From an uncultured Deferribacteres bacterium (lineage in GTDB: Bacteria; Zhuqueibacterota; JdFR-76; DREG01), in the NCBI GenBank assembly GCA_913009825.1, contig CAJVYQ010000010.1, positions 1 through 64,000 of the forward strand: a DNA stretch of 64,000 bases, written 5' to 3'. Made by a program: the position numbers and the translations under genes. Positions 2,982-47,033 of this stretch are shown one piece after another (within the stretch, counting starts at the first letter, position 1; each line of letters starts with the position of its first letter). The notes below the pieces were generated by a model that searched no databases, was not told where the DNA came from, and saw only the letters and a list, made by a program, of their open reading frames with translations.

Positions 2982-4163
2982 CTACGATACGCCGCCTACC
3001 GCTAATTTCTCATTTTTAATTTGTCTGTTTTGTCTCGCGTCTGCTTCTTTACCGCACCGGCACCACACACAATGGCAATTCAGGTGCAGACATTGTTTGT
3101 CAATTAAACGGGAACGATACCAGTAACGCGCAACCAAATAGCTGATCTTTTTGGAAATAGTATATTGATGATGTTTTCTCAAAACCTCGATAACATCCCT
3201 TTTGCCCAAATACTTAAGGATAAACCGGTACCCTTTATTACCCAGTCTGGCATATAACCAGCGGTTTGCCAGAGCTGTTTCCAAAAAAGGCAGAATCTGT
3301 TCTTGCACCAGTTTCTCATAAGGCTGCCCGGTGATGATGCTTTCCGCCGCCAAATAGCCGGACGTCAGGGCATGCCGGATACCAAATCCCCATAACGCAT
3401 CCTGAAAGCCGGCATTTTCACCAACATATAAAATATTGTCTTTTCCGGTTGTAATGGACGGCAGAAAAAAATTACCGAAACCGCCAAACTCTTTTGGCTG
3501 TTGAATATCGATATTAATGAGGTTTTTCATTCTGTCGAACGCTCGTTCATAATAGAGCCGTTCATGTTTAAAATCCTCGAACAAGCAGGTGGCAAACGTA
3601 GCTCTACCGTCGTTAATTAACAGATATGCATAGCCTTTGGGGGCAATCCGGTCGTCTAAAAAACCGAAATAACCGTCTGGATGGGAAGTACGGAAAACGA
3701 TCCCTTTGGCAATTACATCTGCCGCCTTTGGGCCGGTCCCGGAAATCACCATTCTGGATTGGATATGTTCAACTTTATGATTCCACTTGAACTGTACACC
3801 GGCAGCCAGCGCTTGCCTTTTCAGCCCCTGATCAAAGGACCAGAGGTTTTCTCCCCGCTCGATCAGATAAAACAACGGCCGTTTGGAGGTGATGTCAAAA
3901 CGGTTCGAACCGGAATCAAAAAAAGATCCCTGCGAATGAGGCACAAATGTGAAATTAGGTTCCACGCCGATTTGTTTTAGAAATATTTGTGCATCTTCCA
4001 ATGTGGACCAATTCTCAATTCCCTGAAAATCTCCGTTAAAGCGGAAGCCTACATTGTTGTGCTGTTCATAAACAACCGCATTGTAACCGGCGCGAGCCAG
4101 ACGGATAGACGCAATCATTCCGGCCGGACCGGCGCCAATAATATGGATTTTTTGTTTTAGCAT
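2982..4163 (-). CDS. NAD(P)/FAD-dependent oxidoreductase (geranylgeranyl-reductase-like)
   Basis: N-terminal GAGPAGMIASIRLARAGYNAVVYEQ dinucleotide fold; C-terminal Cys-rich tail CLHLNCHCVWC. Confidence 0.75.
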   Translation of the reverse strand: MLKQKIHIIGAGPAGMIASIRLARAGYNAVVYEQHNNVGFRFNGDFQGIENWSTLEDAQIFLKQIGVEPNFTFVPHSQGSFFDSGSNRFDITSKRPLFYLIERGENLWSFDQGLKRQALAAGVQFKWNHKVEHIQSRMVISGTGPKAADVIAKGIVFRTSHPDGYFGFLDDRIAPKGYAYLLINDGRATFATCLFEDFKHERLYYERAFDRMKNLINIDIQQPKEFGGFGNFFLPSITTGKDNILYVGENAGFQDALWGFGIRHALTSGYLAAESIITGQPYEKLVQEQILPFLETALANRWLYARLGNKGYRFILKYLGKRDVIEVLRKHHQYTISKKISYLVARYWYRSRLIDKQCLHLNCHCVWCRCGKEADARQNRQIKNEKLAVGGVS

Positions 4164-4203
4164 ATCTGTTCATCCCTAAAAATCGTTATTTTATCTTCGT
4201 CAT

Positions 4204-4869
4204 TTAAATAGTATCCTTTTCCATGGCGCCGTCAATTTTCTTTCGTTTATAGAAAAATCGTGGAACAAATGCCGGAACCTGCCGGCGATAATTCTGATAT
4301 TCATCCCCGAAAATATTTTCCACCTCCCTTTCTTCACGCATGGACAACCGGTAATAGGCAAACATTAAGATCGGCCACATAATAAGTGTGATAAGTGTGG
4401 GCCATTGAATCAGCATTCCGATGGAGATCAAAAACAAACCTAGGTATTGCGGATGGCGAACAGAAGAATATATACCGGTCACTACCAATTCCCCCTTTGC
4501 AGTATGAATTTGCCGCCATCCTTTGCCCATGATGATTAAACCAATCAACATAATAAAACCGCCAAGCTGACAAATAATCAGCTTTACCCATTCCGAGGCG
4601 CCAAATAACGTGCCCAGCAGATGGCCATTGACATGTTGAAACGGATCGGCTATTCCCATCTTGCTGCCGAATACAGAAAGGAGAACGTAAATTGTCAGCG
4701 GGAATCCATACATCTCCGTGAACAACGCGACAATAAATGCAGCGAACACACCAAGTGTTCGCCATTCATATTTTTTCCTGGGCCGTAAAAAACCGATAAC
4801 AAAAGCGCCAAACAGAATCACATTGAATAAAACCATCAACCAAAGGCCGTAATCATAAGATTCGTGCAC
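4204..4869 (-). CDS. Isoprenylcysteine carboxyl methyltransferase-family integral membrane methyltransferase
   Basis: TGIYSSVRHPQYLGLFLISIGMLI ... EEREVENIFGDEYQNYRRQVPAFVPR motifs, multiple TM helices. Confidence 0.85.
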   Translation of the reverse strand: MHESYDYGLWLMVLFNVILFGAFVIGFLRPRKKYEWRTLGVFAAFIVALFTEMYGFPLTIYVLLSVFGSKMGIADPFQHVNGHLLGTLFGASEWVKLIICQLGGFIMLIGLIIMGKGWRQIHTAKGELVVTGIYSSVRHPQYLGLFLISIGMLIQWPTLITLIMWPILMFAYYRLSMREEREVENIFGDEYQNYRRQVPAFVPRFFYKRKKIDGAMEKDTI

Positions 4870-5144
4870 TTTTTTACCCTCCCTTTTTAAACTTTTTTTT
4901 TATCGTTCCTTAAACAATTTTTATTATTTCAAGATTCATGCCAAAAACATAAATAACTGTTTAATCATTGGTTATACAAAATAAGATGATTCAAAATCAC
5001 ACTATTTTTGAGAATATTCTACAAGTATTTTGTTCAATATTCTACAATTCGAAAATGATTTATTGCTTGTGATTTGATATTTGAAGTTTTAATTTTATTT
5101 GTAATTTGCTCATTTTGTAATTTTGGATTTGCGGTTTCGCTGCG

Positions 5145-5765
5145 CTATGAATTATTCGGGTTAAATCGCTCCGCCAAACGTTTCAGATCGGCAACCGTGT
5201 CGATGTCCTCAACGATAAGCGGGTCTGCAACCTTCCGGCGGATGATTAAATTTTGATTTTTTTGCAGCACATCCCGCAAAGAATGGGATGAAGACTCTCC
5301 GGTGATAGGTTCGAACAGATTACGGGGCAGATAAACAGGATGCCCGCCCCTATTTTGGTGAATTGGGATGATAATTTTATCTCTTTCATTCTCCCCGGTT
5401 TGCCGTAATTGCCCAACCGTATCGCTGCGCAAAAATGGTTGATCGATCAAACAGAGAAGACAACCGGAGCTGTCAGGCGGCAGATTTGCGATGCCCAATT
5501 GCAGTGACGAAAATTGCCCCATTTCATATTGTTTGTTCATTAAAATATTTATTTGACCCGCTTCCGGCAGGGCGGAAATGATTTTTTCCGCATTGTGGCC
5601 CAGGATGAGCAGAATTGTATCAATTCCCGCGCTTCGGAGTGACTTTACGATCCGGAGTAAAAACGGCTGTCCGGCAAATGTTTGCAGTACTTTTGGCGCG
5701 CCGAACCGTTCCGATTTGCCGGCGGCTAAAATAATGGCCGGGATTTGAACAGGGATGAATTGCAT
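5145..5765 (-). CDS. mocA: MocA-family molybdenum cofactor nucleotidyltransferase
   Basis: LAAGKSERFGAPKVL, CLIDQPFL, HQNRGGHPVYLPRNLF; adjacent to xdhC and molybdo-hydroxylase genes. Confidence 0.82.
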   Translation of the reverse strand: MQFIPVQIPAIILAAGKSERFGAPKVLQTFAGQPFLLRIVKSLRSAGIDTILLILGHNAEKIISALPEAGQINILMNKQYEMGQFSSLQLGIANLPPDSSGCLLCLIDQPFLRSDTVGQLRQTGENERDKIIIPIHQNRGGHPVYLPRNLFEPITGESSSHSLRDVLQKNQNLIIRRKVADPLIVEDIDTVADLKRLAERFNPNNS

Positions 5766-5778
5766 CGGGAGGGAACAG

Positions 5779-6573
5779 TTACTTTTTTAACTTCATGGAA
5801 AGATCATCCACCGGGACATGATGCCGCACGGCAATCATTTCCGCAAGGATGCTGACGGCAATTTCATGGGGGGTTTCGGCGCCGATTTTCAGACCGATGG
5901 GCGAATGAACTTTGGCGATCCATTCCCGCTCGATCCCTTTTTCCTGCAAATTGGCAAACAGCGTCGCCGTTTTCCGCTTGCTGCCGATCATGCCCAGGTA
6001 AACAAACGGCTGCCGGATACAATGCTGCAACACTTCCTCATCGCGCTTGTGGCCGTAGGTGACAATAACAATGAAAGTCCTTTCATTGAAAGAAAGCCCG
6101 GCAAATGATTGATTGTATTCCCCGACTATTATCTGACTTGCCTGCGGGAAACGGTTTGAATTGGCATATTCCGGCCGGTCATCCACCACAATCACGTTGT
6201 ATCCGGCTTCTTTCGCCAGCGGACACAGCGCCTGTGCTATATGCCCGGCGCCAAAAATGATGAGCCGGTCCGCGCCGCCCACCGGTTCAAACAACAACTC
6301 CACACTGCCGCCGCACAACATCCCCTCGTCCCCGGTCAGGTGAAAGTTTCGTTTGGCATAATGAGGCGCAGCCATTATTTTGACCGCATCTTCGACGGCC
6401 TCTTTTTCCAGCTTGCCACCGCCAATAGTGCCTGCAATGCTGCCATCGCTGTGGACCACCATTTTACTTCCCGTATGCCGCGGCACCGATCCCTTAACTT
6501 CGGTGACGGTAACCAAAACTCCCCGCTGCCCGGAACGGATCAATTCCAACAGATGTTCGTAAATTTCCGTCAT
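5779..6573 (-). CDS. xdhC: XdhC/CoxI-family Mo cofactor insertion protein
   Basis: VTVTEVKGSVPRHTGSKMVV, GGGKLE, IFGAGHIAQAL, GMIGSKRK. Confidence 0.9.
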   Translation of the reverse strand: MTEIYEHLLELIRSGQRGVLVTVTEVKGSVPRHTGSKMVVHSDGSIAGTIGGGKLEKEAVEDAVKIMAAPHYAKRNFHLTGDEGMLCGGSVELLFEPVGGADRLIIFGAGHIAQALCPLAKEAGYNVIVVDDRPEYANSNRFPQASQIIVGEYNQSFAGLSFNERTFIVIVTYGHKRDEEVLQHCIRQPFVYLGMIGSKRKTATLFANLQEKGIEREWIAKVHSPIGLKIGAETPHEIAVSILAEMIAVRHHVPVDDLSMKLKK

Positions 6574-6592
6574 TCTTTACGCAATGCTCCGT

Positions 6593-7570
6593 TTAAGCCG
6601 TCAACTCACCGATCAGCCTTTTCATTAAATTTTTGGCCAACGGAAGTTTGTATTCATTCATCGCCAAAGGTTCTGCATCAACCAGTGCGGTTTTCATGAT
6701 TTCATCGAGATTCTTTTCACTGGGGATCAGACCGGATAACTTTTTACTGATCTTCTTTTCGAACCATGGCGCCGGCGCCACGCCGCCCAACACGACACGA
6801 CCCTTTTTGAGGGCATTACCATTTTTCTGAATCACGGCAGCGACGCTGACTACCGCAAAATCCCAAACGCCCCGTTCGGCAAATTTGACATAGCCGCTTT
6901 TTGTGTTATTATTCAATTCCTGAATTCGGATATCAACCACAATTTCTCCCGGCAGCAAAATGTTTTCCCGCCTCACATTTTTTTCGGGCAAAACAAAAAA
7001 GTCCCCGATGGCTACGGTTTTGTTTTTCCCGCCGGAATAAACAGTCAATTTTGCATCGAGAGCCAACAGCGCCACCGCCATATCCGAGGGATGAACGATG
7101 AAACAAGGTCCGCCGCCGATGACGCAATGGTACTTATTCTTACCGTCCACGGCATAGCAAATATCCCCGCCTTTGCGCAGACAGTGGAAATCGCCGCGGA
7201 AATACCAGCAGCGCGGACGCTGGCAAATATTACCGCCGATAGTGCCCACATTCCGCAACTGCGGCGAGGCAACTTGTTTTGCCGCCTGCGCCAGCACCGG
7301 ATACCGTTTGTTGATATCGGAATGAGAGGCAATTTTGGCAATGGACGTCAACGCGCCGATTTTCAACCCTTTGCCCGGCTGGTACGAAATCCGGTTCAAA
7401 CCGGGCAGCGATTTTAAATTGACCACATTCCGGGGAGCTTCGATGTCATCTTTCATCAAACCCAACAGATCCGTCCCGCCGGCCAGAGCCGTTGTTTCAT
7501 GCCAACTCTTGCCGAACATTTCTCCGGCTTCCTGCAGCGTTTTGGGTTGGAAGTATGTAAAATTATTCAT
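6593..7570 (-). CDS. Molybdo-hydroxylase FAD-binding subunit (PaoB/YagS-like, with Cys-rich 4Fe-4S insert)
   Basis: ALAGGTDLLGLMK, RNVGTIGGNICQRPRCWYFRGDFHCLRKGGDICYA. Confidence 0.88.
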   Translation of the reverse strand: MNNFTYFQPKTLQEAGEMFGKSWHETTALAGGTDLLGLMKDDIEAPRNVVNLKSLPGLNRISYQPGKGLKIGALTSIAKIASHSDINKRYPVLAQAAKQVASPQLRNVGTIGGNICQRPRCWYFRGDFHCLRKGGDICYAVDGKNKYHCVIGGGPCFIVHPSDMAVALLALDAKLTVYSGGKNKTVAIGDFFVLPEKNVRRENILLPGEIVVDIRIQELNNNTKSGYVKFAERGVWDFAVVSVAAVIQKNGNALKKGRVVLGGVAPAPWFEKKISKKLSGLIPSEKNLDEIMKTALVDAEPLAMNEYKLPLAKNLMKRLIGELTA

Positions 7571-7652
7571 GATATTCTCCGTATTTTAAATTTGTCCGAA
7601 ACCTTGGCGTGTTCCGTGACAGGAAACATCCGGTTCCCATCGCTTTCTTAGA

Positions 7653-9944
7653 CTATCCCTGCAGTGCCATCAACACCTTATCCGGCGTGATGGGCAAACT
7701 TTTAAGGCGCACACCGATCGCGTTATACACTGCGTTGGCAATGGCTGCCGGGGTGGGAATCATCGCCGGTTCACCGATCCCTTTGACGCCGGTGTTGCTG
7801 ATTTTGGCATCCCCTTCACTGACGATGATCACCTCTATTTCCGGAACATTATATATTGCGGGCATTTTGTAATCATACAGATTAGCATTCAGCATTTTGC
7901 CGGTGAATTCATCCATCACCCGTTCTTCTATCAGAGCAAAACCCAATCCTTGCAGAATGCCGCCGTGGACCTGGTTTTCCAGCGTTTTACGGTTCAGAAC
8001 GCGGCCGATATCATGTGCGGCAACAATTTTTTTCACCGAAATCCTGCCGGTGTACGTATCCACTTCCACCCGGGCGAACTGGGCGCCGAAAGTGTTGATC
8101 GCGTATCCGGAAGGGTTTGCGTTGCGCGCGCCGGTGGTGAGTAAAACCCGCTCCCGCATCCGGCGCACAATGTTGGCGATGGTGAGTTTTTTATCCGGTT
8201 TATTTTTCACAGAAATAATGCCGTTTTTGTACACAAGCTGATTTCCCGGAATTTCCAGAACTGCGGCCGCAGCCGAAATCAGTTTGGTTTTCATCTGTTC
8301 CGCCGCATCGCGCACGGCCGGTGAAACAGAGGGAGCTGTGGTGCTGCCGCCGCTGGAACCGCAGTAGGGAGCTACGGCCGTATCTCCCAGTGTAACCTGG
8401 ATTTTCTCCATGGGAATTTCCAAAACTTCCGCAGCAACCTGGGCGATAAAAGTGTAGGTTCCGGTACCCAGATCCTGCGACCCGGCAATTACATGGGCGC
8501 TGCCGTCGCGGTTCAATTTAAGTGTGGCGTAAGCCGGCGGGCCTCCTCCACCCCACCATATCTGCGTGGCCACACCCAGACCGGTTTTAACCGGCCCGCT
8601 GCCGGAACCTGCCGGTTTGCGATCCTGCCAACCGATGGCAGCAGCGCCGCGCTTGTATGCCTGACGCAATAATTTGCCGGTGTACGGCCGGTTGGAAGCC
8701 GGATCCACTTCCGCATAATTTTTTATACGGAATGCCAATGGATCCATGCCGATTTTTTCCGCAGTCTCGTCGATGATCGATTCAAAGGCAAAGGTCCCCT
8801 GAACATGTCCGGGAGCCCGGAACGGTCGTCCGCGGCCAGTATTGATGAAAACCGTGTATTCTTCACTGCGGACATTGAAGCATTTGTACAGAGTGCGAAA
8901 CGGCCGGCTACAACCTGCGCCGCTTGGATAAGCGCCTGCCGCGCCGTAGGAGTAATGATTCATGGCGGTGAGTGTACCGTCTTTTTTCGCGCCGACTTTC
9001 AACTTCTGCACGGAACCGGGACGGTTGCCCACGGCCAGGTTCATCGCCCTTCTGTCCAGCGCAATCCGTACCGGCCTGCCGGTCTCCCGGGCTAAAAGCG
9101 CCGCCATCACCGTGTATTTACCCGCTTCCAGTTTGCTGCCAAAAGCGCCGCCCATATATTTTTTGATAACCCGCACTTTGCTGGCCGGCATTTTTAAATA
9201 ACCGGCAATAGCATCACGCACAGAAAACACACCCTGGGTGGAATCCCAAATTGTTAACCGGCTGCCATCCCAATTCACCACGCTGCAATGGGGTTCCGTC
9301 GGGTTATGGATTTCAACCTGAGTGGAAAAAGTATCCTCCACCACCACATCTGCTTGTTTGAACCCCTTCTCGATATCGCCTCTTTTGTAAATTTGCGGCT
9401 CGCCGCGTACAACATTTCCTGCGTCATGGACTTTCGCCGCGCCGGGTTTCATGGCGGCGCCGGCGTCCACCACAAAGGGCAGCTCTTCGTACTCAACATG
9501 AATCAGTTTCAAAGCATCCACTGCAATCTGCTCCGTTTCCGCGGCGATACAAGCCACTTCATCGCCTTCGTAACGCAGATGGGGATCGAAAAGGAAACTC
9601 ATGCCATAGTACCAGGGAATCTTTGGCGCATTTTCATAAGTAAGCACTGCCAAAACTCCCGGCACTTTTTTAGCTTCACTGATATCGATCTTTTTAATTT
9701 TAGCATGGGGCAGCGGACAACGCAGCGTTTTTGCATATACCATGTTGGGTAGTGAAATATCGAAGGAAAATTTCGCAGTTCCACTGACTTTATCATACCC
9801 GTCGATGCGTGACAATGATTTGCCAACGACCTTTAGCTGTGAATTAGGCCCCCAATCTTTCACTTTCTCCGTGGAAACTTCACCGATGGTTTCGATGAAA
9901 TCCTCTTCAAAAAAATATTTCGATTTAACAATTTTTCGAGGCAT
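7653..9944 (-). CDS. Molybdo-hydroxylase molybdopterin-binding subunit (xanthine dehydrogenase/aldehyde oxidoreductase family)
   Basis: 763 aa; MGGAFGSKLEAGKYT, GSQDLGTGTYT, GSSGGSTTAPS, GVKGIGEPAMIPTPAAIANAVYNAIG. Confidence 0.93.
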   Translation of the reverse strand: MPRKIVKSKYFFEEDFIETIGEVSTEKVKDWGPNSQLKVVGKSLSRIDGYDKVSGTAKFSFDISLPNMVYAKTLRCPLPHAKIKKIDISEAKKVPGVLAVLTYENAPKIPWYYGMSFLFDPHLRYEGDEVACIAAETEQIAVDALKLIHVEYEELPFVVDAGAAMKPGAAKVHDAGNVVRGEPQIYKRGDIEKGFKQADVVVEDTFSTQVEIHNPTEPHCSVVNWDGSRLTIWDSTQGVFSVRDAIAGYLKMPASKVRVIKKYMGGAFGSKLEAGKYTVMAALLARETGRPVRIALDRRAMNLAVGNRPGSVQKLKVGAKKDGTLTAMNHYSYGAAGAYPSGAGCSRPFRTLYKCFNVRSEEYTVFINTGRGRPFRAPGHVQGTFAFESIIDETAEKIGMDPLAFRIKNYAEVDPASNRPYTGKLLRQAYKRGAAAIGWQDRKPAGSGSGPVKTGLGVATQIWWGGGGPPAYATLKLNRDGSAHVIAGSQDLGTGTYTFIAQVAAEVLEIPMEKIQVTLGDTAVAPYCGSSGGSTTAPSVSPAVRDAAEQMKTKLISAAAAVLEIPGNQLVYKNGIISVKNKPDKKLTIANIVRRMRERVLLTTGARNANPSGYAINTFGAQFARVEVDTYTGRISVKKIVAAHDIGRVLNRKTLENQVHGGILQGLGFALIEERVMDEFTGKMLNANLYDYKMPAIYNVPEIEVIIVSEGDAKISNTGVKGIGEPAMIPTPAAIANAVYNAIGVRLKSLPITPDKVLMALQG

Positions 9945-37819: not shown

Positions 37820-37869
37820 CCCGGTCTTTTTTTTAACAAGTAGGATATTTTTTCTCAAGAGGTGTGATT

Positions 37870-38223
37870 ATGGGAATTACTCATATTCATGGGAAAGTTT
37901 CCGGGCCGAAAGGTACGGCCGAGGATGTGCGTTTTTTAGTTGACAGCGGCGCTACCTACTCATTATTGCCCCAAAAAATTTGTGAAGCCATCGGTTTAAA
38001 GCCCAAACGAACATTACAATTTTCTCTTGCGGACGGCACTATCATCGAACGTGCCGTGTCGGAATGCCATATCTCCTTACCGGAGGGCGAAGGCCATACG
38101 CCGGTGATTATTGGTCAACAAGATGACGAAGCGCTGTTAGGCGTTGTTACTTTAGAAATTCTGGGTCTGGTTTTCAATCCGTTCAATCGAACCCTACAGC
38201 CAATGAAGATGGTATTAATTTGA
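37870..38223 (+). CDS. Retropepsin-like aspartyl protease-fold protein
   Basis: VRFLVDSGATYSLLPQKICEAIGL; ALLGVVTLEILGL. Confidence 0.8.
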   Translation: MGITHIHGKVSGPKGTAEDVRFLVDSGATYSLLPQKICEAIGLKPKRTLQFSLADGTIIERAVSECHISLPEGEGHTPVIIGQQDDEALLGVVTLEILGLVFNPFNRTLQPMKMVLI

Positions 38224-38306: not shown

Positions 38307-38564
38307 ATGAAAACAATTCGAGTCCAACAAATTGTCGCAAAAGATAGTGAAATATTGGTTAAAGAAATACCTTACAGGAAAGGTCAAAAGGTTGAGGTTA
38401 TTGTGTTGCCTCAAACTAAGAAAACCAGATCACGTCCGCATTTAACCGTGCGCCGGTTGCGTCAATTCGGTTTGATTGGTCTGTGGAAGGATCGAGACGA
38501 TATACAAAACAGTGCTGACTATACTCGTCATTTGAGAGAACAAGCTCAAAATCGTGGAATGTAA
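38307..38564 (+). CDS. VapB-like antitoxin (orphan)
   Basis: Small protein ending GLIGLWKDRDDIQNSADYTRHLREQAQNRG, typical of antitoxins preceding PIN-domain toxins. Confidence 0.6.
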   Translation: MKTIRVQQIVAKDSEILVKEIPYRKGQKVEVIVLPQTKKTRSRPHLTVRRLRQFGLIGLWKDRDDIQNSADYTRHLREQAQNRGM

Positions 38565-38567
38565 ACC

Positions 38568-38684
38568 ATGATTCTGTTAGATAGCCATAAATTTCTTACC
38601 TGTGCAAAGACAGAGTTTCGAATACTCATAATAAATCATTTGGAATTTTGCAAAACATCTTGTATATTTATTCATGTTTATTAA
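38568..38684 (+). pseudogene. Possible truncated vapC (PIN toxin) 5' remnant
   Basis: ATG ATT CTG TTA GAT AGC -> MILLDS... typical PIN start, then unrelated sequence. Confidence 0.35.
38640..38668 (+). promoter_or_regulatory. Predicted sigma70-like promoter of aromatic operon
   Basis: TTGGAA - 17 nt - TATATT. Confidence 0.55.
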
Positions 38685-38712
38685 GGATCATTTCAAGAAA
38701 GTTAATATCTGC

Positions 38713-38769
38713 ATGGATCGCATCGAATTTGTAAACTTCTCTTTTTATTACTTTTATTTTTATCCGTAA
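38713..38769 (+). CDS. Phe/Tyr-rich leader peptide MDRIEFVNFSFYYFYFYP* (longer in-frame start possible at 38674)
   Basis: 8 of the 10 residues at the C-terminus are Phe/Tyr; stop codon 3 nt before antiterminator arm; not in ORF track. Confidence 0.8.
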   Translation: MDRIEFVNFSFYYFYFYP

Positions 38770-38772
38770 AAG

Positions 38773-38837
38773 CGGGAGCGGTATATTTGTGTTTTTAAAC
38801 CCTCCCGAATTTACTTGTCGGGAGGGTTTTTTATTTT
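38773..38837 (+). promoter_or_regulatory. Attenuator: antiterminator arm CGGGAGcGG (38773-38781) vs terminator CCCTCCCG (38800-38807)/CGGGAGGG (38819-38826)-TTTTTT
   Basis: Both pairings use the same CCCTCCCG strand and are mutually exclusive. Confidence 0.82.
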
Positions 38838-38847
38838 GGAGGATCTT

Positions 38848-39216
38848 GTGCGGCAAATAAAAGTGCGCGGCATTCGCGGGGCAAATACGGTTGACGGGGA
38901 TTCAAAAAGTGAAATATTTAGATCTACCAAAGACCTGTTACAGGAAATTTTTACGGTTAACAGAATCAACCCCGAGGAAATTGCGGCTATTTATTTCACT
39001 TTAACACCGGATTTGAACGCCGCTTTTCCCGCTGAGGTTACCCGTGAAATGGGGATGACAAAAGTTCCCCTCTTGTGTATGCGGGAAATTGGTGTGCCGG
39101 GCAGTTTGCCGCAGGTTGTGCGAATATTATTGCTTGTAAATACAGAGTTAGATCAAAATGAGATCAAGCACGTTTATCTTAGGGAAGCTAAAAATTTACG
39201 AGATGATTTGGATTGA
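38848..39216 (+). CDS. aroH: Monofunctional chorismate mutase (AroH type), GTG start
   Basis: VRQIKVRGIRGANTVDGDSKSEIFRSTKDLLQEI; REIGVPGSLPQVVRILLLVNT; SD GGAGG 7 nt before GTG. Confidence 0.92.
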   Translation: MRQIKVRGIRGANTVDGDSKSEIFRSTKDLLQEIFTVNRINPEEIAAIYFTLTPDLNAAFPAEVTREMGMTKVPLLCMREIGVPGSLPQVVRILLLVNTELDQNEIKHVYLREAKNLRDDLD

Positions 39217-39225
39217 GGAGGTCTT

Positions 39226-40272
39226 ATGATTGTTGTCGTTGATAACAAGTCGGGCGAAAAAAGCGTTCGGGCGATTGTTGAGGAGATCCGGAAGATGGGC
39301 TTTAAAACCCACCTCTCTAAAGGAATAGAAAAAACCACTATTGGTGTAATTGGTGATAACCGCTATATTGCGAAAGAGAGAATTCAAATGCTATCAGGTG
39401 TGGAAAAAGTGATTAATGTATTAAAACCGTTCAAGTTAAGTTCCAGGGAGTTTCACCCGGAAAATTCAATTATACGCGTGAATGGAACGGAGATAGGGAA
39501 AGGATTTATTACTATTGCCGGGCCCTGCTCAGTGGAATCCCGGGAGCAGATTTTGGAGTCTGCTCATTTTGTCAAAGAAAACGGTGCGAATATTCTGCGC
39601 GGCGGCGCCTTTAAACCCAGAACCTCGCCGTACAGTTTTCAGGGGTTGGGGCTGAAAGCTCTGGAATATCTGGCCGAAGCAAAAGAAGCTACCCATTTAC
39701 CCATTGCCACAGAAGTGCTCTCGCCGCAGGATGTGCAGATGGTGGCACAGTATGTGGATGTTTTACAGATAGGCGCCAGAAACATGCAGAATTTTTCATT
39801 ACTGCGGGCGGTAGGACAGGTGAGAAAGCCGGTTTTGTTGAAACGGGGCATGATGGCAACTATCGAAGAATTTCTGCTGGCGGCAGAATATATCATGAAC
39901 GAAGGGAACCCGGATGTGATTTTATGCGAACGGGGAATCCGCACATTTGAAACCTATACCCGGAACACACTGGATTTAAGCGCCGTCGCTCTGATCAAAG
40001 GGATTTCCCATCTGCCGATCATCGTCGATCCCAGTCATGCTACCGGAAAACGGGAACTGGTGGCGCCGCTGTCAAAAGCTTCCGTTGCTCTCGGCGCCGA
40101 TGGTGTGATGGTGGAGGTTCATCCCGATCCGACAAAAGCGTTGTCGGACGGCGCCCAGAGTCTGGATTTTCCCCAATTTGCATCGATGATGAAAGAAATA
40201 TTCAGCATCGCTGAAGCATTGAAAACAACCCGTGTTGAAACCACTAATCTTTACGCCAAAGAAGCAGTTTGA
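39226..40272 (+). CDS. aroF: 3-deoxy-7-phosphoheptulonate (DAHP) synthase
   Basis: [85 protein letters not shown]. Confidence 0.96.
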
Positions 40273-41123
40273 TGAAATCAGAAAAAGAAGTATATAGCGC
40301 CGCTTACCAGGGAATCGACGGCGCGTACAGTCAGGAGGCGATTTTTAGCTATTTCGGGGAAAAAGTGAAAACCTGTGGCTGTGAGACATTCGATGAAGTG
40401 ATTAAAAAAGTTGAACTTGATGAAGCGAAAACCGGTTTTTTACCTGCCGAAAATTCAGTGGCCGGAACCATCGTGCAAACGTTCGATTTGCTTTTAGAAT
40501 CAAATCTCAGTATCACCGGTGAGTTTTATCTGCCCATTCATCATAATTTGCTGGTTTTGCCGGATGTAGATGAAAAATCGATTCACACCATCTATTCTCA
40601 TCCACAGGCGCTTGCACAATGCGCACAGTTTATCAAGCGTGCCGGCTATCATTCACAGGCGGTGTGGGATACGGCCGGCAGCGCCCGGGAAATCCGGCAG
40701 AAAAAAATTACCGACGGCGCCGCCATCGCCAGCTCGCAGGCGGCAGAGGCTTATCAACTAAAAATTTTAACCTCGAATATCGAAGATGTTGTGCACAATA
40801 CGACGCGGTTTTTTATTCTGGGCAAACATACAGCGAAACCGGCGGAAAAGAATAAAACTTCTCTGCTTTTTTCCACCAGGCATGAACCGGGATCTTTGAT
40901 GAGATGTTTACAGCAATTCGCCCGGCGCGAGATCAATTTAACTAAAATTGAATCCCGCCCGGATCGTCTCCATCCCTGGCACTACATCTTTTATCTCGAT
41001 TTTGAGGGGCATGTTGAGGATCCCGTCATTGAACAGGCGTTGCTGCATCTGTTAAAACAGGCGACGTTGGTGAAAATATTGGGCAGTTACCCTATGGGAG
41101 AGAAATATGCTGCCGGCAATTGA
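40272..41123 (+). CDS. pheA: Prephenate dehydratase
   Basis: YQGIDGAYSQEAI, LPAENSVAGTIVQTFDLL, YSHPQALAQC, NTTRFFILG, C-terminal ACT ESRPDRLHPWHYIFYLDFEGH. Confidence 0.93.
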   Translation: MKSEKEVYSAAYQGIDGAYSQEAIFSYFGEKVKTCGCETFDEVIKKVELDEAKTGFLPAENSVAGTIVQTFDLLLESNLSITGEFYLPIHHNLLVLPDVDEKSIHTIYSHPQALAQCAQFIKRAGYHSQAVWDTAGSAREIRQKKITDGAAIASSQAAEAYQLKILTSNIEDVVHNTTRFFILGKHTAKPAEKNKTSLLFSTRHEPGSLMRCLQQFARREINLTKIESRPDRLHPWHYIFYLDFEGHVEDPVIEQALLHLLKQATLVKILGSYPMGEKYAAGN

Positions 41124-41961
41124 AACAGCTTCGATTATCGGCCTGGGGCAGATTGGCGGTTCGCTGGCAATGGCATTGAAAAAAGCAGGTTATTTCCCCA
41201 AGTTGGGCGGATTTGATTCTGATAAAAAACGTCGGCAACTGGCTGCATCTTTTCTAGATCAACATTTTGAAACTATCGAGGACGCATTCGAAAAGAGTGA
41301 TCTTCTTATTTTAGCAACTCCGGTCGGAGATATTTTGCACCTGCTCGAATTTGGCTTCCAACATTATCCCCAAAAACTTTATTCCGACGTTGGCAGCGCT
41401 AAGCAGCCCATGATGAAACTGGCAGCCGGTTACAAAGATATCCGTTTTGTTGGCGGTCATCCGCTGGCCGGCAGCGAAAAAAGCGGCGAATCCGGCTGGG
41501 ATGAAACTTTGTTTGAAGATAAACCCTATTTTTATGTTCCCGCGCCGAATCCGCCTGCCAAAGATGTGGAACTGCTTGTCGAAATGATCCGGGCGATCAA
41601 AGCGGTGCCTCATCCCATTGCCGCAGATGTCCATGATCGTGCTCTGGCGGCAACCAGCCATTTGCCGCTGCTGTTCTCATTATCTGTGATGTCAACTTAC
41701 ATGGAAAATGAAATTAACTTGCAGCCGTTTCTTGGCGGCGGTTTCAAATCCGTGGTCCGCCTGAGCGGCGGCTCCCCGGAAATGGGCAGAGATTTGCTGC
41801 TCAGTAACCGGGAGAATATTTTGTCAGAATTGAACCGCTATCGGATGGGTTTGACTGCGCTGCAAAATATGCTCGAAACCAACAATGAAGGTAAATTACT
41901 TACGATAATGGAAAAGATTCACGAAAAATATTGGCTGCTTTTTCCGGAGCAGGCAAAATGA
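41107..41961 (+). CDS. tyrA: Prephenate dehydrogenase
   Basis: IIGLGQIGGSLAMALKKAGY, DVGSAKQPM, GGHPLAGSEKSGE, ATSHLPLLFSLS. Confidence 0.93.
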   Translation: MLPAIETASIIGLGQIGGSLAMALKKAGYFPKLGGFDSDKKRRQLAASFLDQHFETIEDAFEKSDLLILATPVGDILHLLEFGFQHYPQKLYSDVGSAKQPMMKLAAGYKDIRFVGGHPLAGSEKSGESGWDETLFEDKPYFYVPAPNPPAKDVELLVEMIRAIKAVPHPIAADVHDRALAATSHLPLLFSLSVMSTYMENEINLQPFLGGGFKSVVRLSGGSPEMGRDLLLSNRENILSELNRYRMGLTALQNMLETNNEGKLLTIMEKIHEKYWLLFPEQAK

Positions 41962-43235
41962 TGAGAATATTTCCGGCCGGAAAAATAAGCGGCACTCTGC
42001 ATGTTCCGGGCGATAAATCGATCTCCCACCGCGTACTAATTCTTGCTTCGCTGGCGAAAGGGGAGTCCTTTTTCTCCGGCTTATCTACCGGTGCAGATGT
42101 TCAATCCACGATGAATGTTCTATGTCGGTTGGGGACAAAAATAGAATTGGACGGGGAAAACATAGTCGTTACCGGGAAAGGAAGATTTGCCTACCGGGAA
42201 CCGAAAACTGTTTTGGATTGCGGAAATTCCGGCACTTCTGCCCGTTTACTCACCGGAGTGATTGCCGGACAAAAATGTTTTGCCGTTTTGTCCGGTGATG
42301 AATCTCTGCGCAGCCGGCCGATGAAACGGGTTATTGCTCCATTGAGTGAAATGGGCGCCCGGATCTGGGGCAGAAAGAAAAATGCTTTACTACCGTTGGC
42401 TATTTTGGGAACGTCATTGCACGGAATCGAATATCACACACCCACGGCGAGCGCTCAGATAAAAACGGCAATTCTGCTGGCCGGTCTGCTGGCGGAAGGA
42501 GAAACCACGGTGACGGAACCGGCGCCGAGCAGGGATCACACGGAGCGGCTGTTTCACTGGCTGGGCTTTTCGTTCACAAAACAGGGGTTGACATCCAAAA
42601 TAGAACCCTCGAATATTCCCGCTTTTTCCATGGCTGTTCCCGGTGATTTTTCTTCTGCGGCCTATTTTATTGCCCTGGGCGTATTGCATAAAAAGTCTCG
42701 TTTAACACTGAAATCCGTGAATTTGAATCCGACAAGAACAGGCTTTTTGCAGGTGCTGCAGCGAATGGGCGCCGATATCCGGATTGAAATTACGGCGGAG
42801 GGACCGGAACCGGTGGGCGATGTTTTTGTTGAACCGTCGGCGTTGCAGAATGTGGAACTTACCGCGGCGGAAATTCCTTCTCTGATCGACGAACTTCCCC
42901 TGTTGGCAGTTGTGGGGACACAGGCACATGGAGAGATGCGGGTTACCGGCGCAAAAGAGCTTCGTGTGAAAGAATCGGACCGGATCACCGGCATTGTATC
43001 GCAATTGAAAAGGATGGGTGCCGGAATAGAAGAGCTGCCGGACGGATTTGTGGTTGAAGGTCCGGTGAAACTCCGGGGTTCGGCGCTCACTTCCAATCAG
43101 GATCACCGTATCGCCATGGCGCTGACCGTTGCCGCTTATCTTGCCGGGGGCGAATCGAAATTATTCGGCGAGAAATGGGTGACCATTTCGTTCCCGGAAT
43201 TTTACCGCCTGCTTTCTCAAATTAGCAAGGAATAA
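41958..43235 (+). CDS. aroA: 5-enolpyruvylshikimate-3-phosphate (EPSP) synthase
   Basis: GDKSISHRVLILASLA, LDCGNSGTSARLLTGVIAG, GDESLRSRPMKRV, VKESDRI; ATGA overlap with tyrA. Confidence 0.96.
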   Translation: MMRIFPAGKISGTLHVPGDKSISHRVLILASLAKGESFFSGLSTGADVQSTMNVLCRLGTKIELDGENIVVTGKGRFAYREPKTVLDCGNSGTSARLLTGVIAGQKCFAVLSGDESLRSRPMKRVIAPLSEMGARIWGRKKNALLPLAILGTSLHGIEYHTPTASAQIKTAILLAGLLAEGETTVTEPAPSRDHTERLFHWLGFSFTKQGLTSKIEPSNIPAFSMAVPGDFSSAAYFIALGVLHKKSRLTLKSVNLNPTRTGFLQVLQRMGADIRIEITAEGPEPVGDVFVEPSALQNVELTAAEIPSLIDELPLLAVVGTQAHGEMRVTGAKELRVKESDRITGIVSQLKRMGAGIEELPDGFVVEGPVKLRGSALTSNQDHRIAMALTVAAYLAGGESKLFGEKWVTISFPEFYRLLSQISKE

Positions 43236-43236
43236 G

Positions 43237-44082
43237 ATGAAATTACTTGGTTTATTAGGCTATCCGCTATCACACAGTTTTTCACCGCGTATGATTAATA
43301 AAATTGCCCGGAAAAATAATTGGGATTGCAGTTACCATCCTTTTTCCATTCCCGGAGATAAAATGGCCGATTTTATAAAGGCGGTAAAATTACTGCCCGT
43401 TGCCGGGTTTAATGTAACCGTTCCGTACAAACAATCCATCCTTCAATATTGCGACGAACTTTCGGCCGGTGTGCGTGAAATTGGCGCCGCCAACACAATT
43501 ATCAACGACCGGGGCAGATTGATTGCCCGGAATACGGATGTTACCGGTTTTAAGTACGGCATGAAAAATTTACTGCCGGAAAATATAAATCTGTCCGGCG
43601 CTCTCATTTTAGGCGCCGGCGGCGTTGCCCGGGCGGTAGTTTATGCGCTGAAAAAAATGGACTGCCGTAACTTTTACCTGACCGATGTGAACCCGGAAAA
43701 AGAACGGCAATGGCGGGAAGAGGTGAGCGGTATGTTCAATAATTGTGAGATTCATTTCTTCACGCCGCAAACGGAACGACTGCGGGAGCTGTTGAGTAGT
43801 GTAAATTTAATCATTCAGGCCACGCCGGTTGGCATGTTTCCAAATATAAATGAAGCGGTTCAGTTTCCGTTCGAAAATCTTACGCAGAATCACTATGTTT
43901 ACGATCTGGTTTATAACCCACTGGAAACAAAATTTGTCCGCCTGGCAAAACAATCCGGCGCGCAAGCGCATAATGGATTGAATATGCTGGCCGCTCAGGC
44001 TGCCAAATCGTTGGAGCATTGGGGTTTTTCCGTGGCGGCGGAAGTTTTGTTTAATACTCTTTTAGCAGAAAATCAAAGTTAA
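43237..44082 (+). CDS. aroE: Shikimate dehydrogenase
   Basis: GYPLSHSFSPRMIN, GFNVTVPYKQSI, GAANTI, NTDVTGFKYG, LILGAGGVARAVVYAL. Confidence 0.95.
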   Translation: MKLLGLLGYPLSHSFSPRMINKIARKNNWDCSYHPFSIPGDKMADFIKAVKLLPVAGFNVTVPYKQSILQYCDELSAGVREIGAANTIINDRGRLIARNTDVTGFKYGMKNLLPENINLSGALILGAGGVARAVVYALKKMDCRNFYLTDVNPEKERQWREEVSGMFNNCEIHFFTPQTERLRELLSSVNLIIQATPVGMFPNINEAVQFPFENLTQNHYVYDLVYNPLETKFVRLAKQSGAQAHNGLNMLAAQAAKSLEHWGFSVAAEVLFNTLLAENQS

Positions 44083-44098
44083 AAATCGGGATATTTTC

Positions 44099-45223
44099 AT
44101 GTTGACTTATCACACCGCCGGAGATTCGCACGGTAAAATGCTCCTTGGCGTTTTGACAGGATTTCCGGCACATGTTCCTCTTTCCGTGGAAAAAATCAAT
44201 GCCGTGTTGGCTCGGCGCCAGGCCGGATACGGACGTAGTAAGCGGCAGCAGATCGAGAAAGATGAGGTGGAAATTGTCGCCGGTTTCTGGCGGGGAGAAT
44301 CCACCGGCGCGCCGCTTGGACTTACGGTGAAGAACAAAGCCGGTAAAATACAAAAAACGGTGCGGCCGCGAACCGTTCCCCGTCCGGGTCATGCGGATTT
44401 AGCCGGTGCATGGAAATATGGTTGGGAACATGATTTTAATCCGGTCATCGAAAGGTCCAGCGCCCGGGAAACTGCTATGCGGGTTGCTATTGGCGCGATT
44501 TGTTCTGCGTTTTTACGGGAATTAGGTGTCGAAGTGCTGGGACATGTCCGCCGCATCGGCGACGTGGAAACAGAAATCGGGGAATTGCCTTTGGGGAAAA
44601 TGAGGCAGATTATGGAAAAATCCCCTTTCCATTGCTTGGATGCCGGTGTTGAAGAAAAAATGCGTCAACTTGTCGATGATATCCGGGAAGAAGGCGACAG
44701 TCTTGGCGGTGAAGTGGAAGTGATTGTGGAGAATGCTCCGCCGGGATTGGGAAATCCGGGCGATGCAGATCAACGGCTGGACGCACAATTGGCACAGGCC
44801 ATGATGAGTATCCCCTCGGTGAAAGCGGTGGAAATCGGTGACGGCATCAGGAACTCCTATTTGCCGGGAAGTTGGGTGCATGATAAAATCAGTCTGGCCA
44901 ATCAACATATTCGGCGGGAGACCAATCGCACCGGCGGTATCGAAGGCGGGATCAGCAATGGGGAACGGATCATTGTGCGTAATTATCACAAACCGGTTCC
45001 TACCATGGTACAGGGAATCGAGAGCGTGAATTTGCAGGACGGCACTTCCCAAAAAGCGCCTTATATTCGCTCGGATGTTGTAGTGATCCCTGCTGCCTCC
45101 GTTGTTGCCGAAGCAATGGCCGCTTTTGTGATTGTCAAAGCGATACTGGAAAAATTTGGTCATGATCATTTAGAGGACATTAAAAAAAATATAGAGAATT
45201 ACAAAAACAGATTGAAATTTTAG
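44099..45223 (+). CDS. aroC: Chorismate synthase
   Basis: HTAGDSHGKMLLGVLTGFPA, RRQAGYGRSKRQQIEKDEVEI, RPGHADLAGAWKYG, RSSARETAMRVA. Confidence 0.97.
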   Translation: MLTYHTAGDSHGKMLLGVLTGFPAHVPLSVEKINAVLARRQAGYGRSKRQQIEKDEVEIVAGFWRGESTGAPLGLTVKNKAGKIQKTVRPRTVPRPGHADLAGAWKYGWEHDFNPVIERSSARETAMRVAIGAICSAFLRELGVEVLGHVRRIGDVETEIGELPLGKMRQIMEKSPFHCLDAGVEEKMRQLVDDIREEGDSLGGEVEVIVENAPPGLGNPGDADQRLDAQLAQAMMSIPSVKAVEIGDGIRNSYLPGSWVHDKISLANQHIRRETNRTGGIEGGISNGERIIVRNYHKPVPTMVQGIESVNLQDGTSQKAPYIRSDVVVIPAASVVAEAMAAFVIVKAILEKFGHDHLEDIKKNIENYKNRLKF

Positions 45224-45419
45224 TTCCGGCGGGGTTCGTCCGGTTTCGTATTGTAACGCTTCGGGCAGGTAGAAAAACATTCTCCTGTTTTCTACTTCAA
45301 GGGGGGGGATGAGCGGGGCAGATAGATGTAAAACAATTTTTTAGCACAATCAAATCATATCCGTATTGTTGCTCTTTCTTTGTTGAATTCTGCCTGTTTG
45401 ATTATCGGAGCTTTTTATA

Positions 45420-47033
45420 ATGGCACAAAATTCATCTTTCTCAATCCAGTTCAAATCTTCCCGCATCGTCCTTGCCGGTATGATGGGTTCCGGCAAATCA
45501 ACCGTGGCAAAAATTCTTGCCGATTACCTGGATTGGGATTTTATCGACACCGATGCTCTCATCGAAAAGAGGCATGGAAAAACCATCAGGGAAATCTTTG
45601 CCGATGAGGGGGAACCTTATTTTCGCAATCTGGAACGGGATTTGGTGAAAGAGCTTCAAGCCCGGAATCACTGTGTTATCGCTACCGGCGGCGGTATGAT
45701 TGTTCCCGAAGAAAACAGAAATTTACTTCATCGGGATTCGCTCTTTGTGCATCTGCATTCTTCGGTTCAGGAACTGATGGAACGGTTAGAAAAAGCTACC
45801 AACCGTCCCCTGCTTTTGCGCGGAGAATTGCTGGAGGAGCTGCAAAAAATTTATTGTGACCGGGCCGGAATTTACGAAGGATTGCCAATCCAGATTCTTA
45901 CGGATGATAAAACGCCGGTTCAGATTGCCTGGGAAATTTTGCTGCAGTTGGTACATTCCCATGAGATCATCTCCGGCGGAAAAGCCGTGGTGCATGTGGG
46001 ATTAAATCTGACTTCTGTTTTGGCTGACATTCTGGAACAGGGAATTATTTCTACTCCGGTTTTTATTCTGGCGGATGAATATTTCTGGCCGATCGCAGGA
46101 AAGTTTTACATGGAGAGAGTCCTGGCAGAAATGGATCGCAGCCCAAATCTCCATTTGATGCTAATTTCCAGTTCAGAGCAGAACAAATCCATCGAAACGG
46201 CCACAGTTATGTGGCGGGAGATGATTGAAGCCGGCGCCGATCGCAACAGTGTATTGGTAGTATTGGGTGGCGGCGTGCCCGGCGATGTAGGCGGGTTTGT
46301 TGCTTCCACCCTGTTTCGCGGCATCCGTTTGATTCAAATCCCGACTACTCTGTTGGCGCAGATCGATTCTTCCATCGGCGGGAAAACAGGCGTCAATTTG
46401 CAGGACACCAAAAATATGGTTGGCACCTTTTATCCCGCTCATCACACGCTGATCGATCCATTGCTATTGCTGACTCTTCCCGAACGGGAGATGAGCAGCG
46501 GCCTGGCGGAGATGATTAAAACGGCGCTGCTGGGGGATTATGAGTTGTTCGGTTTCCTTGAAGAAAACATGCCCAAAATTTTGCACGAACAATTGCCTCT
46601 GTTGCTCCGGGCGGTTACACGAACGGCCAAAATCAAAGTGGAGATTGTGGAAGAAGATCTGTATGAAAAAAGCGGAAGCCGGATTTTACTGAATCTGGGG
46701 CATACCTACGGCCACGCCATCGAAGTTTTGAGCGATTACAAATTGAAACACGGTGAAGCGGTATCTCTCGGGATGGTGCTGGCAGCAAAACTTGGGGTAA
46801 AATTAGGCTATTGTGATGACGCCATACTCAATCGTTTAACAACTTTATTGAAACAGGCTCAACTTCCCGTTAAATTGCCGGATATGAAGAAAGAAGAAAT
46901 CCTTGGGAAAATCAAACGCGATAAAAAAAGAACCAATCAGGTTTTGCGTTTTGTTTTTCCCAAAGAGATCGGCCGGGCGAATGCAGTACCGCTTGAATCT
47001 GAAGAAAAATTGCTGTTGGCTTTTGATGATTAA
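45420..47033 (+). CDS. aroKB: Fused shikimate kinase / 3-dehydroquinate synthase
   Basis: N-term GMMGSGKSTVAKILADYLDWDFIDTDALIE, ATGGGMI; C-term VLGGGVPGDVGGFVASTLFRGIRLIQIPTTLLAQIDSSIGGKTGVN, LNLGHTYGHAIE. Confidence 0.96.
   Translation: MAQNSSFSIQFKSSRIVLAGMMGSGKSTVAKILADYLDWDFIDTDALIEKRHGKTIREIFADEGEPYFRNLERDLVKELQARNHCVIATGGGMIVPEENRNLLHRDSLFVHLHSSVQELMERLEKATNRPLLLRGELLEELQKIYCDRAGIYEGLPIQILTDDKTPVQIAWEILLQLVHSHEIISGGKAVVHVGLNLTSVLADILEQGIISTPVFILADEYFWPIAGKFYMERVLAEMDRSPNLHLMLISSSEQNKSIETATVMWREMIEAGADRNSVLVVLGGGVPGDVGGFVASTLFRGIRLIQIPTTLLAQIDSSIGGKTGVNLQDTKNMVGTFYPAHHTLIDPLLLLTLPEREMSSGLAEMIKTALLGDYELFGFLEENMPKILHEQLPLLLRAVTRTAKIKVEIVEEDLYEKSGSRILLNLGHTYGHAIEVLSDYKLKHGEAVSLGMVLAAKLGVKLGYCDDAILNRLTTLLKQAQLPVKLPDMKKEEILGKIKRDKKRTNQVLRFVFPKEIGRANAVPLESEEKLLLAFDD

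Follow-up and report, generated by a model that had tools for sequence, protein, structure and literature searches.

An operon of aromatic amino acid biosynthesis genes lies on the plus strand of the window (the whole stretch of DNA analysed, 64,000 nucleotides long), behind a short reading frame rich in Phe and Tyr codons. An intrinsic terminator (38797-38832) is located between this leader and the first structural gene. The promoter-like element, the leader and the start signals of aroH were read from the sequence itself, and the features are as follows:

38640-38668, plus strand: promoter-like element, TTGGAA-N17-TATATT
38713-38769, plus strand: leader peptide ORF, MDRIEFVNFSFYYFYFYP and stop codon, with equivalents in 37 further genomes of the phylum
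38773-38782, plus strand: arm 2, CGGGAG(c)GGT, the antiterminator's 5' arm, which begins 3 nt beyond the stop codon of the leader
38797-38808, plus strand: arm 3, AAACCCTCCCGA, the 3' arm of the antiterminator (38799-38807) and the 5' arm of the terminator
38818-38829, plus strand: arm 4, TCGGGAGGGTTT, which with the U-tract at 38827-38832 completes an intrinsic terminator with six U
38838-38842 and 38848-38850, plus strand: GGAGG Shine-Dalgarno sequence and GTG start codon of aroH
38848-39216, plus strand: aroH, type I chorismate mutase (TIGR01796, 133.7 bits against a cut-off of 82; PF07736)
39226-40272, plus strand: aroF, DAHP synthase (NF006421 and TIGR01361, over cut-off)
40272-41123, plus strand: pheA, prephenate dehydratase (NF008865, over cut-off)
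41107-41961, plus strand: tyrA, prephenate dehydrogenase (best NCBIfam matches are prephenate dehydrogenases, below their cut-offs)
41958-43235, plus strand: aroA, EPSP synthase (TIGR01356, over cut-off)
43237-44082, plus strand: aroE, shikimate dehydrogenase (TIGR00507, over cut-off)
44099-45223, plus strand: aroC, chorismate synthase (TIGR00033, over cut-off)
45420-47033, plus strand: aroKB, shikimate kinase / 3-dehydroquinate synthase fusion (TIGR01357, over cut-off)

The promoter, leader ORF, pairing arms, run of six T, Shine-Dalgarno sequence and GTG named in a preliminary description of this DNA were all found where it had placed them. Judged by its sequence, the gene called aroH here is a type I chorismate mutase and not the E. 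coli DAHP synthase of the same name. The eight aromatic genes share the plus strand, and from aroH to aroC they overlap or are separated by at most 16 nt. The aroC-aroKB gap measures 196 nt (45224-45419), and no terminator-like site was found within it; because of its length, control by the attenuator from aroH through aroKB is plausible rather than established. A comparable aroC-aroKB gap was seen in G005, a genome of the same order. Residues 11-180 of aroKB are matched by shikimate kinase models. Upstream of the attenuator, the window contains a clan AA aspartic protease-like ORF (37864-38223; TIGR03698, 56.4 bits, just under the cut-off of 57.35), followed by a small unannotated ORF (38307-38564).

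The leader peptide is encoded with six Phe and four Tyr codons, so that ten of its 18 codons are Phe/Tyr. An in-frame ATG at 38674 is an alternative start that would give a 31-residue variant. Inspection of the sequence found no strong Shine-Dalgarno element before either candidate start (38713 or 38674), which leaves the leader start codon unsettled. The promoter scan returned 12 matches where 11.3 were expected, meaning that TTGGAA-N17-TATATT occurs at background frequency; counterparts at about the same place are TTGCTT-N16-TATATT in both genomes of the same family and TTGCAT-N17-TATTTT in G005.

The preliminary description had paired arm 2 (CGGGAG core, 38773-38778) with CCCTCCCG at 38800-38807, and the latter strand with CGGGAGGG at 38819-38826, followed by T6. 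The antiterminator helix is longer than was described there, joining 38773-38782 with ACCCTCCCG at 38799-38807 (-13.9 kcal/mol), and it shares arm 3 with the terminator as an alternative pairing. The terminator stem has 12 bp (38797-38808 with 38818-38829, -20.0 kcal/mol). In the folding model, no strong 1:2 protector or pause hairpin of the trpL type was found to form from the leader coding region; the minimum free energy fold holds a 1:2-like hairpin of only 4 bp.

A single locus of this kind is only suggestive, and the case rests on conservation, because runs of six F/Y codons are found 64 times across the 5.1 Mb of the genome and the reversed control pattern 87 times, the folding z-score of the whole region is modest (-1.54) and the promoter is at chance level. 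These same figures are compatible with an accidental origin, in which a T-rich stretch happens to be read as Phe and Tyr codons before an ordinary terminator. The comparative data contradict this. A search for aroF in 82 genomes of the phylum gave a full or good match in 59, and 60 stretches upstream of aroF were scanned for a terminator with a short ORF ending near it in which at least 5 of 12 residues were F, Y or W. The scan yielded 37 leaders, each from a different genome, so that with the present locus there are 38 leaders from 16 families; a leader with a terminator just upstream thus occurs in 38 of the 59 genomes having a good aroF match. When the threshold was raised to 6 of 12, the forward strand still gave F/Y/W leaders at 32 of 60 loci, the reverse strand at 0 of 60. 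At that threshold, other residue sets gave no leaders (H, W, KN, HQ and DE) or few (ILV, 8 forward and 3 reverse). Among 456 codons, 286 were F/Y/W in frame 0, 90 in frame +1 and 104 in frame +2; these counts are to some extent predetermined, as frame-0 content served to select the leaders, and the reverse-strand and other-residue controls are cleaner. Together, the strand, residue-set and frame controls indicate that the aromatic residues belong to the reading frame and do not simply reflect T-rich DNA. Given that leaders precede the same operon in 38 genomes from 16 families, that the opposite strand yielded none, and that the arms co-vary (see below), we regard a chance arrangement as having a negligible probability.

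The closest relatives preserve the arrangement in detail. Upstream of aroH, both genomes of the same family carry leaders (MISHNSNTPNSFFFSYYFWFQ and MKNFTANSSFYYFYFRFP), as does G005 (MKTLSVANYFSNFGGNFYVYFYFP); in G003, where aroH had no match, the leader MTISRLRLIDFYVGFYFYYFP directly precedes aroF. Leader, terminator and antiterminator arm recur at all four of these loci (L003, L004, L005 and L014, of the same family or order). In these relatives TGGGAG, TTGGGAG or CAGGGAG comes immediately after the leader, ahead of a GGGAGGG terminator. The arm 2 bases 5' of the GGGAG core (C, T, TT, CA, CA) have their complements in arm 3. The codon run and the alternative pairings, on whose presence in relatives the preliminary description had staked its interpretation, are therefore both present. 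No such leader was found upstream of aroH at L006/L047 (G024).

A MAFFT alignment of the five nearest leaders failed to bring the arms into register, and co-variation was assessed by arm swaps instead. Duplexes were formed between the sequence following the aromatic run and the terminator 5' arm, with partners swapped between genomes. Own pairs averaged -17.33 kcal/mol and permuted pairs -12.16 kcal/mol (sd 0.44), and none of 2000 permutations reached the own value; shuffling of arm 2 gave -9.03 kcal/mol. With one leader per family and partners taken across families, own pairs (-16.6 versus -10.9) were lower in 200 of 200 draws. Since own pairs are more stable than swapped ones, arms 2 and 3 co-vary, and at the level of sequence they change together between families. 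The comparison of 2:3 stems proposed in the preliminary description thus came out as it had anticipated, with pairing within a genome far better than between genomes.

One of the 38 leaders (L074) has no convincing arm 2, and the others fall into two layouts. In the order to which the locus belongs, arm 2 starts no more than 2 nt from where the leader stop codon ends. In the remaining families its start lies inside the reading frame, 13-36 nt ahead of the stop codon's end, and it often codes for Ser-Ser-Gly or similar. The first gene also varies. It encodes an AroQ-type chorismate mutase in most families (PF01817; checked on two), with aroF next, and usually an AroH-type chorismate mutase in the order of the locus. 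At six sampled loci outside this order, tyrA follows aroF in all six, aroA, aroE and aroK/aroB in five, and aroC in four. The AroH type occurs in 5 of the 82 genomes of the phylum, all of them in the order except one, G024; the leader has thus been kept before two unrelated chorismate mutases. The named AroH relatives found are Chloroflexi MAGs, which together with the narrow distribution suggests that an AroQ-type enzyme was replaced by AroH through lateral transfer. Arrival of the sensor together with aroH from Chloroflexi was considered and ruled out, the relatives at L007-L011 having no upstream leader.

The leader codons follow the content of the operon. Leaders of aro-only operons have means of 3.5 F, 3.9 Y and 0.2 W per 12 codons, and those before trpE in genomes where aroF lies elsewhere have 3.5 W, 0.7 F and 0.9 Y. 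Where aroF lies less than 10 kb downstream of trpE on the same contig, the means are 3.2 W, 3.6 Y and 1.2 F (for example TSAYWFWYWYYY and FGFWFWYWYYYY), with one of these five joined leaders (L173) containing W only. On the codon counts, aro leaders are F/Y leaders, trp leaders are W leaders, and joined trp-aro leaders combine W, F and Y. Mixed W/F/Y leaders were noted at L156, L166, L170 and L179, the trpE loci of G040, G013, G032 and G035; in each of these four genomes a single contig carries trpE with aroF no more than about 8 kb away. In family f7 the aro leaders are W-rich (WFWYWYY), and a PLP-fold protein is encoded between leader and aroF (Pfam PALP, 29.6 bits, below cut-off, from a partial sequence); we tentatively assign it as a TrpB-type tryptophan synthase. 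Gene content in f7 was read from translations, with the order leader, AroQ-type, ParB-like, TrpB-like and aroF at L048 (reverse complement, about 4947-8000) and L055 (about 3065-6000).

The same scan found W leaders at 21 of 30 trpE loci of the phylum, at least one of the 21 (L168) looking like chance, and His leaders at 16 of 31 hisG loci; swapped-residue controls gave 0 and 1 matches, respectively. In the genome under study, the leader MHFNSSYKTKRNNWWWYYLQSGFCMFD and then a terminator (AAAGCCCGCT/AGCGGGCTTT) lie upstream of trpE (L102:1252-1335, G000:C54), and a six-His leader, MDYTKRYHHHHHHVKVKLNL, stands before a terminator upstream of hisG (L104:1273-1335, G000:C27). Trp and His attenuators are thus likely to be present in the same genome. 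No leader was found directly upstream of pheS (L105) or of ilvB (L106, apparently behind ilvD), and no Ile/Leu/Val leader was found in the 5.4 kb upstream of ilvB under the filter used.

These codon data bear on what the leader might sense. An attenuator may respond to only one of the two amino acids, with the codons of the other carried along by the abundance of TTT and TAT in AT-rich genomes. TTT and TAT do make up 221 of the 286 aromatic codons, and the known leaders pheL and pheM are Phe-specific. However, all 38 leaders contain both Phe and Tyr, in nearly equal totals (Y 143, F 127), and TTC, TAC and TGG are used too, e.g. at L051 and L054. Leu and Ile, whose codons may be equally AT-rich, are rare at this locus, and the leaders of trp operons are rich in W with few F or Y. 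Sensing of a single amino acid is thus considered unlikely. An RNA that binds a protein or metabolite (TRAP-like, T-box or riboswitch) could instead control the terminator, with the ORF incidental; an antiterminator and a terminator are by themselves compatible with any attenuation system. Yet Rfam gave no match at gathering score, including T-boxes and riboswitches, in the window or ten related loci. Moreover, only the arms, the terminator and the content of the ORF are evidently conserved between families, the codon content follows operon content and the aromatic codons are frame-specific. A binding RNA is for these reasons judged very improbable.

The geometry of a ribosome-mediated switch was assessed in a co-transcriptional folding model, in which the leading edge of the ribosome was assumed to lie 11 nt past the first A-site base. 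Before arm 4 was made, the probability of the 2:3 helix at this locus was 0.99-1.00 for every ribosome position as far as the last Tyr codon, 0.39 at Pro18 and 0.02 at the stop. In this model, then, a ribosome on the Phe/Tyr codons leaves arm 2 free and a ribosome at the stop masks it. With the 3' edge of the ribosome anywhere up to 38769, the 2:3 helix won (P 1.00) before arm 4 existed. Even with the ribosome near the start codon, modelled arm 2 was free and paired with arm 3, which indicates that a strong 1:2 hairpin guarding arm 2 is absent. Once arm 4 was present the terminator always won, being the more stable fold at equilibrium in the model; the choice between 2:3 and 3:4 must therefore be kinetic and made before arm 4 is synthesized. 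Averaged over the 38 leaders, the corresponding values were 0.83, 0.83 and 0.67 on the first, middle and last aromatic codon and 0.22 at the stop, by a coarser measure, which includes other upstream pairings as well and gives 0.39 for this locus at the stop. Several relatives stay at 0.5-0.65 at the stop, perhaps because the model ignores upstream ribosome coverage.

From the parts of the switch, their conservation, the co-variation of the arms, the modelled geometry and the matching of codons to operons, we infer a ribosome-mediated transcription attenuator that very probably senses the charging of both tRNA-Phe and tRNA-Tyr, with leader translation, stalling, termination and regulation as its expected steps. 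The leader-peptide attenuator put forward in the preliminary description is supported by the recurrence of leader, terminator and arm 2 in the family, the order and across 16 families. Transcription would start at about 38675, with a ribosome trailing RNA polymerase into the leader ORF. When Phe- or Tyr-tRNA is short, the ribosome would wait on one of the ten Phe/Tyr codons, leaving arm 2 free to pair with the emerging arm 3, so that the terminator would not form and the aromatic operon would be transcribed. When both tRNAs are plentiful, a ribosome reaching the stop would cover arm 2, arm 3 would pair with arm 4 and transcription would end before aroH. An untranslated leader is predicted to allow read-through, as arm 2 has no strong protecting hairpin; in E. 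coli trpL, a strong 1:2 protector hairpin is present and the untranslated leader terminates.

The proposed switch has several known counterparts, but it falls outside the Rfam families of such leaders: Phe_leader (RF01859) scores 19.7 bits, where 55 are needed for gathering, and His_leader (RF00514) 23.7 bits, where 49 are needed. With trpL and the His operon leader it shares the principle that ribosome position on regulatory codons selects between 2:3 and 3:4, but the amino acids differ and no strong 1:2 protector hairpin was found here. The E. coli pheA leader (pheL) also combines a short Phe-rich leader peptide, alternative antiterminator and terminator structures and an aromatic gene downstream; here, however, the leader mixes Phe codons with Tyr codons, and the operon behind it runs from DAHP synthase as far as chorismate synthase, and probably to aroKB. 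The nearest open-access description is the uORFC-13-1 motif of Acholeplasma and environmental sequences, which occurs exclusively before aroF and is a proposed uORF with at least one Phe codon before an intrinsic terminator; unlike here, sensing of Tyr is not reported in the section consulted (PMC8632094). Tyr-related attenuation of E. coli aroF was hypothesised by Camakaris et al. 1980, as cited in PMC8632094 and PMC2659441; the DAHP synthase gene is common to both cases, and the 5' UTR and the phylum differ. No description of Phe and Tyr codons together in one leader peptide was found in the open-access literature, subscription papers being outside the scope of the search. The mechanism is classical; the proposed dual Phe/Tyr sensing, its placement before a whole shikimate operon and a phylum-wide family in two layouts are new relative to that literature.

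Attenuation of the textbook kind has been described mainly in Proteobacteria; Firmicutes and Actinobacteria contribute scattered examples (PMC9413887, PMC1262725). The present data extend attenuation at aro, trp and his operons to one phylum beyond the usual Proteobacteria. We consider it likely that in this phylum ribosome-mediated attenuation is the main control of aromatic, and also histidine, biosynthesis, leader peptides serving as exchangeable sensors (Phe and Tyr for the shikimate operon, Trp for trp, and Phe, Tyr and Trp for joined operons), and that the sensor was retained when the first enzyme changed from AroQ-type to AroH-type and when the antiterminator arm crossed the leader stop. 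The series of aro, trp and joined trp-aro operons with matching leaders provides a natural test of the idea that regulatory codons change in step with the genes of the operon. With dual sensing ahead of a complete shikimate operon, one RNA switch would read two end products of a branched pathway. Such leaders aid the assignment of function and the prediction of regulation in genomes that are known mainly as draft assemblies.
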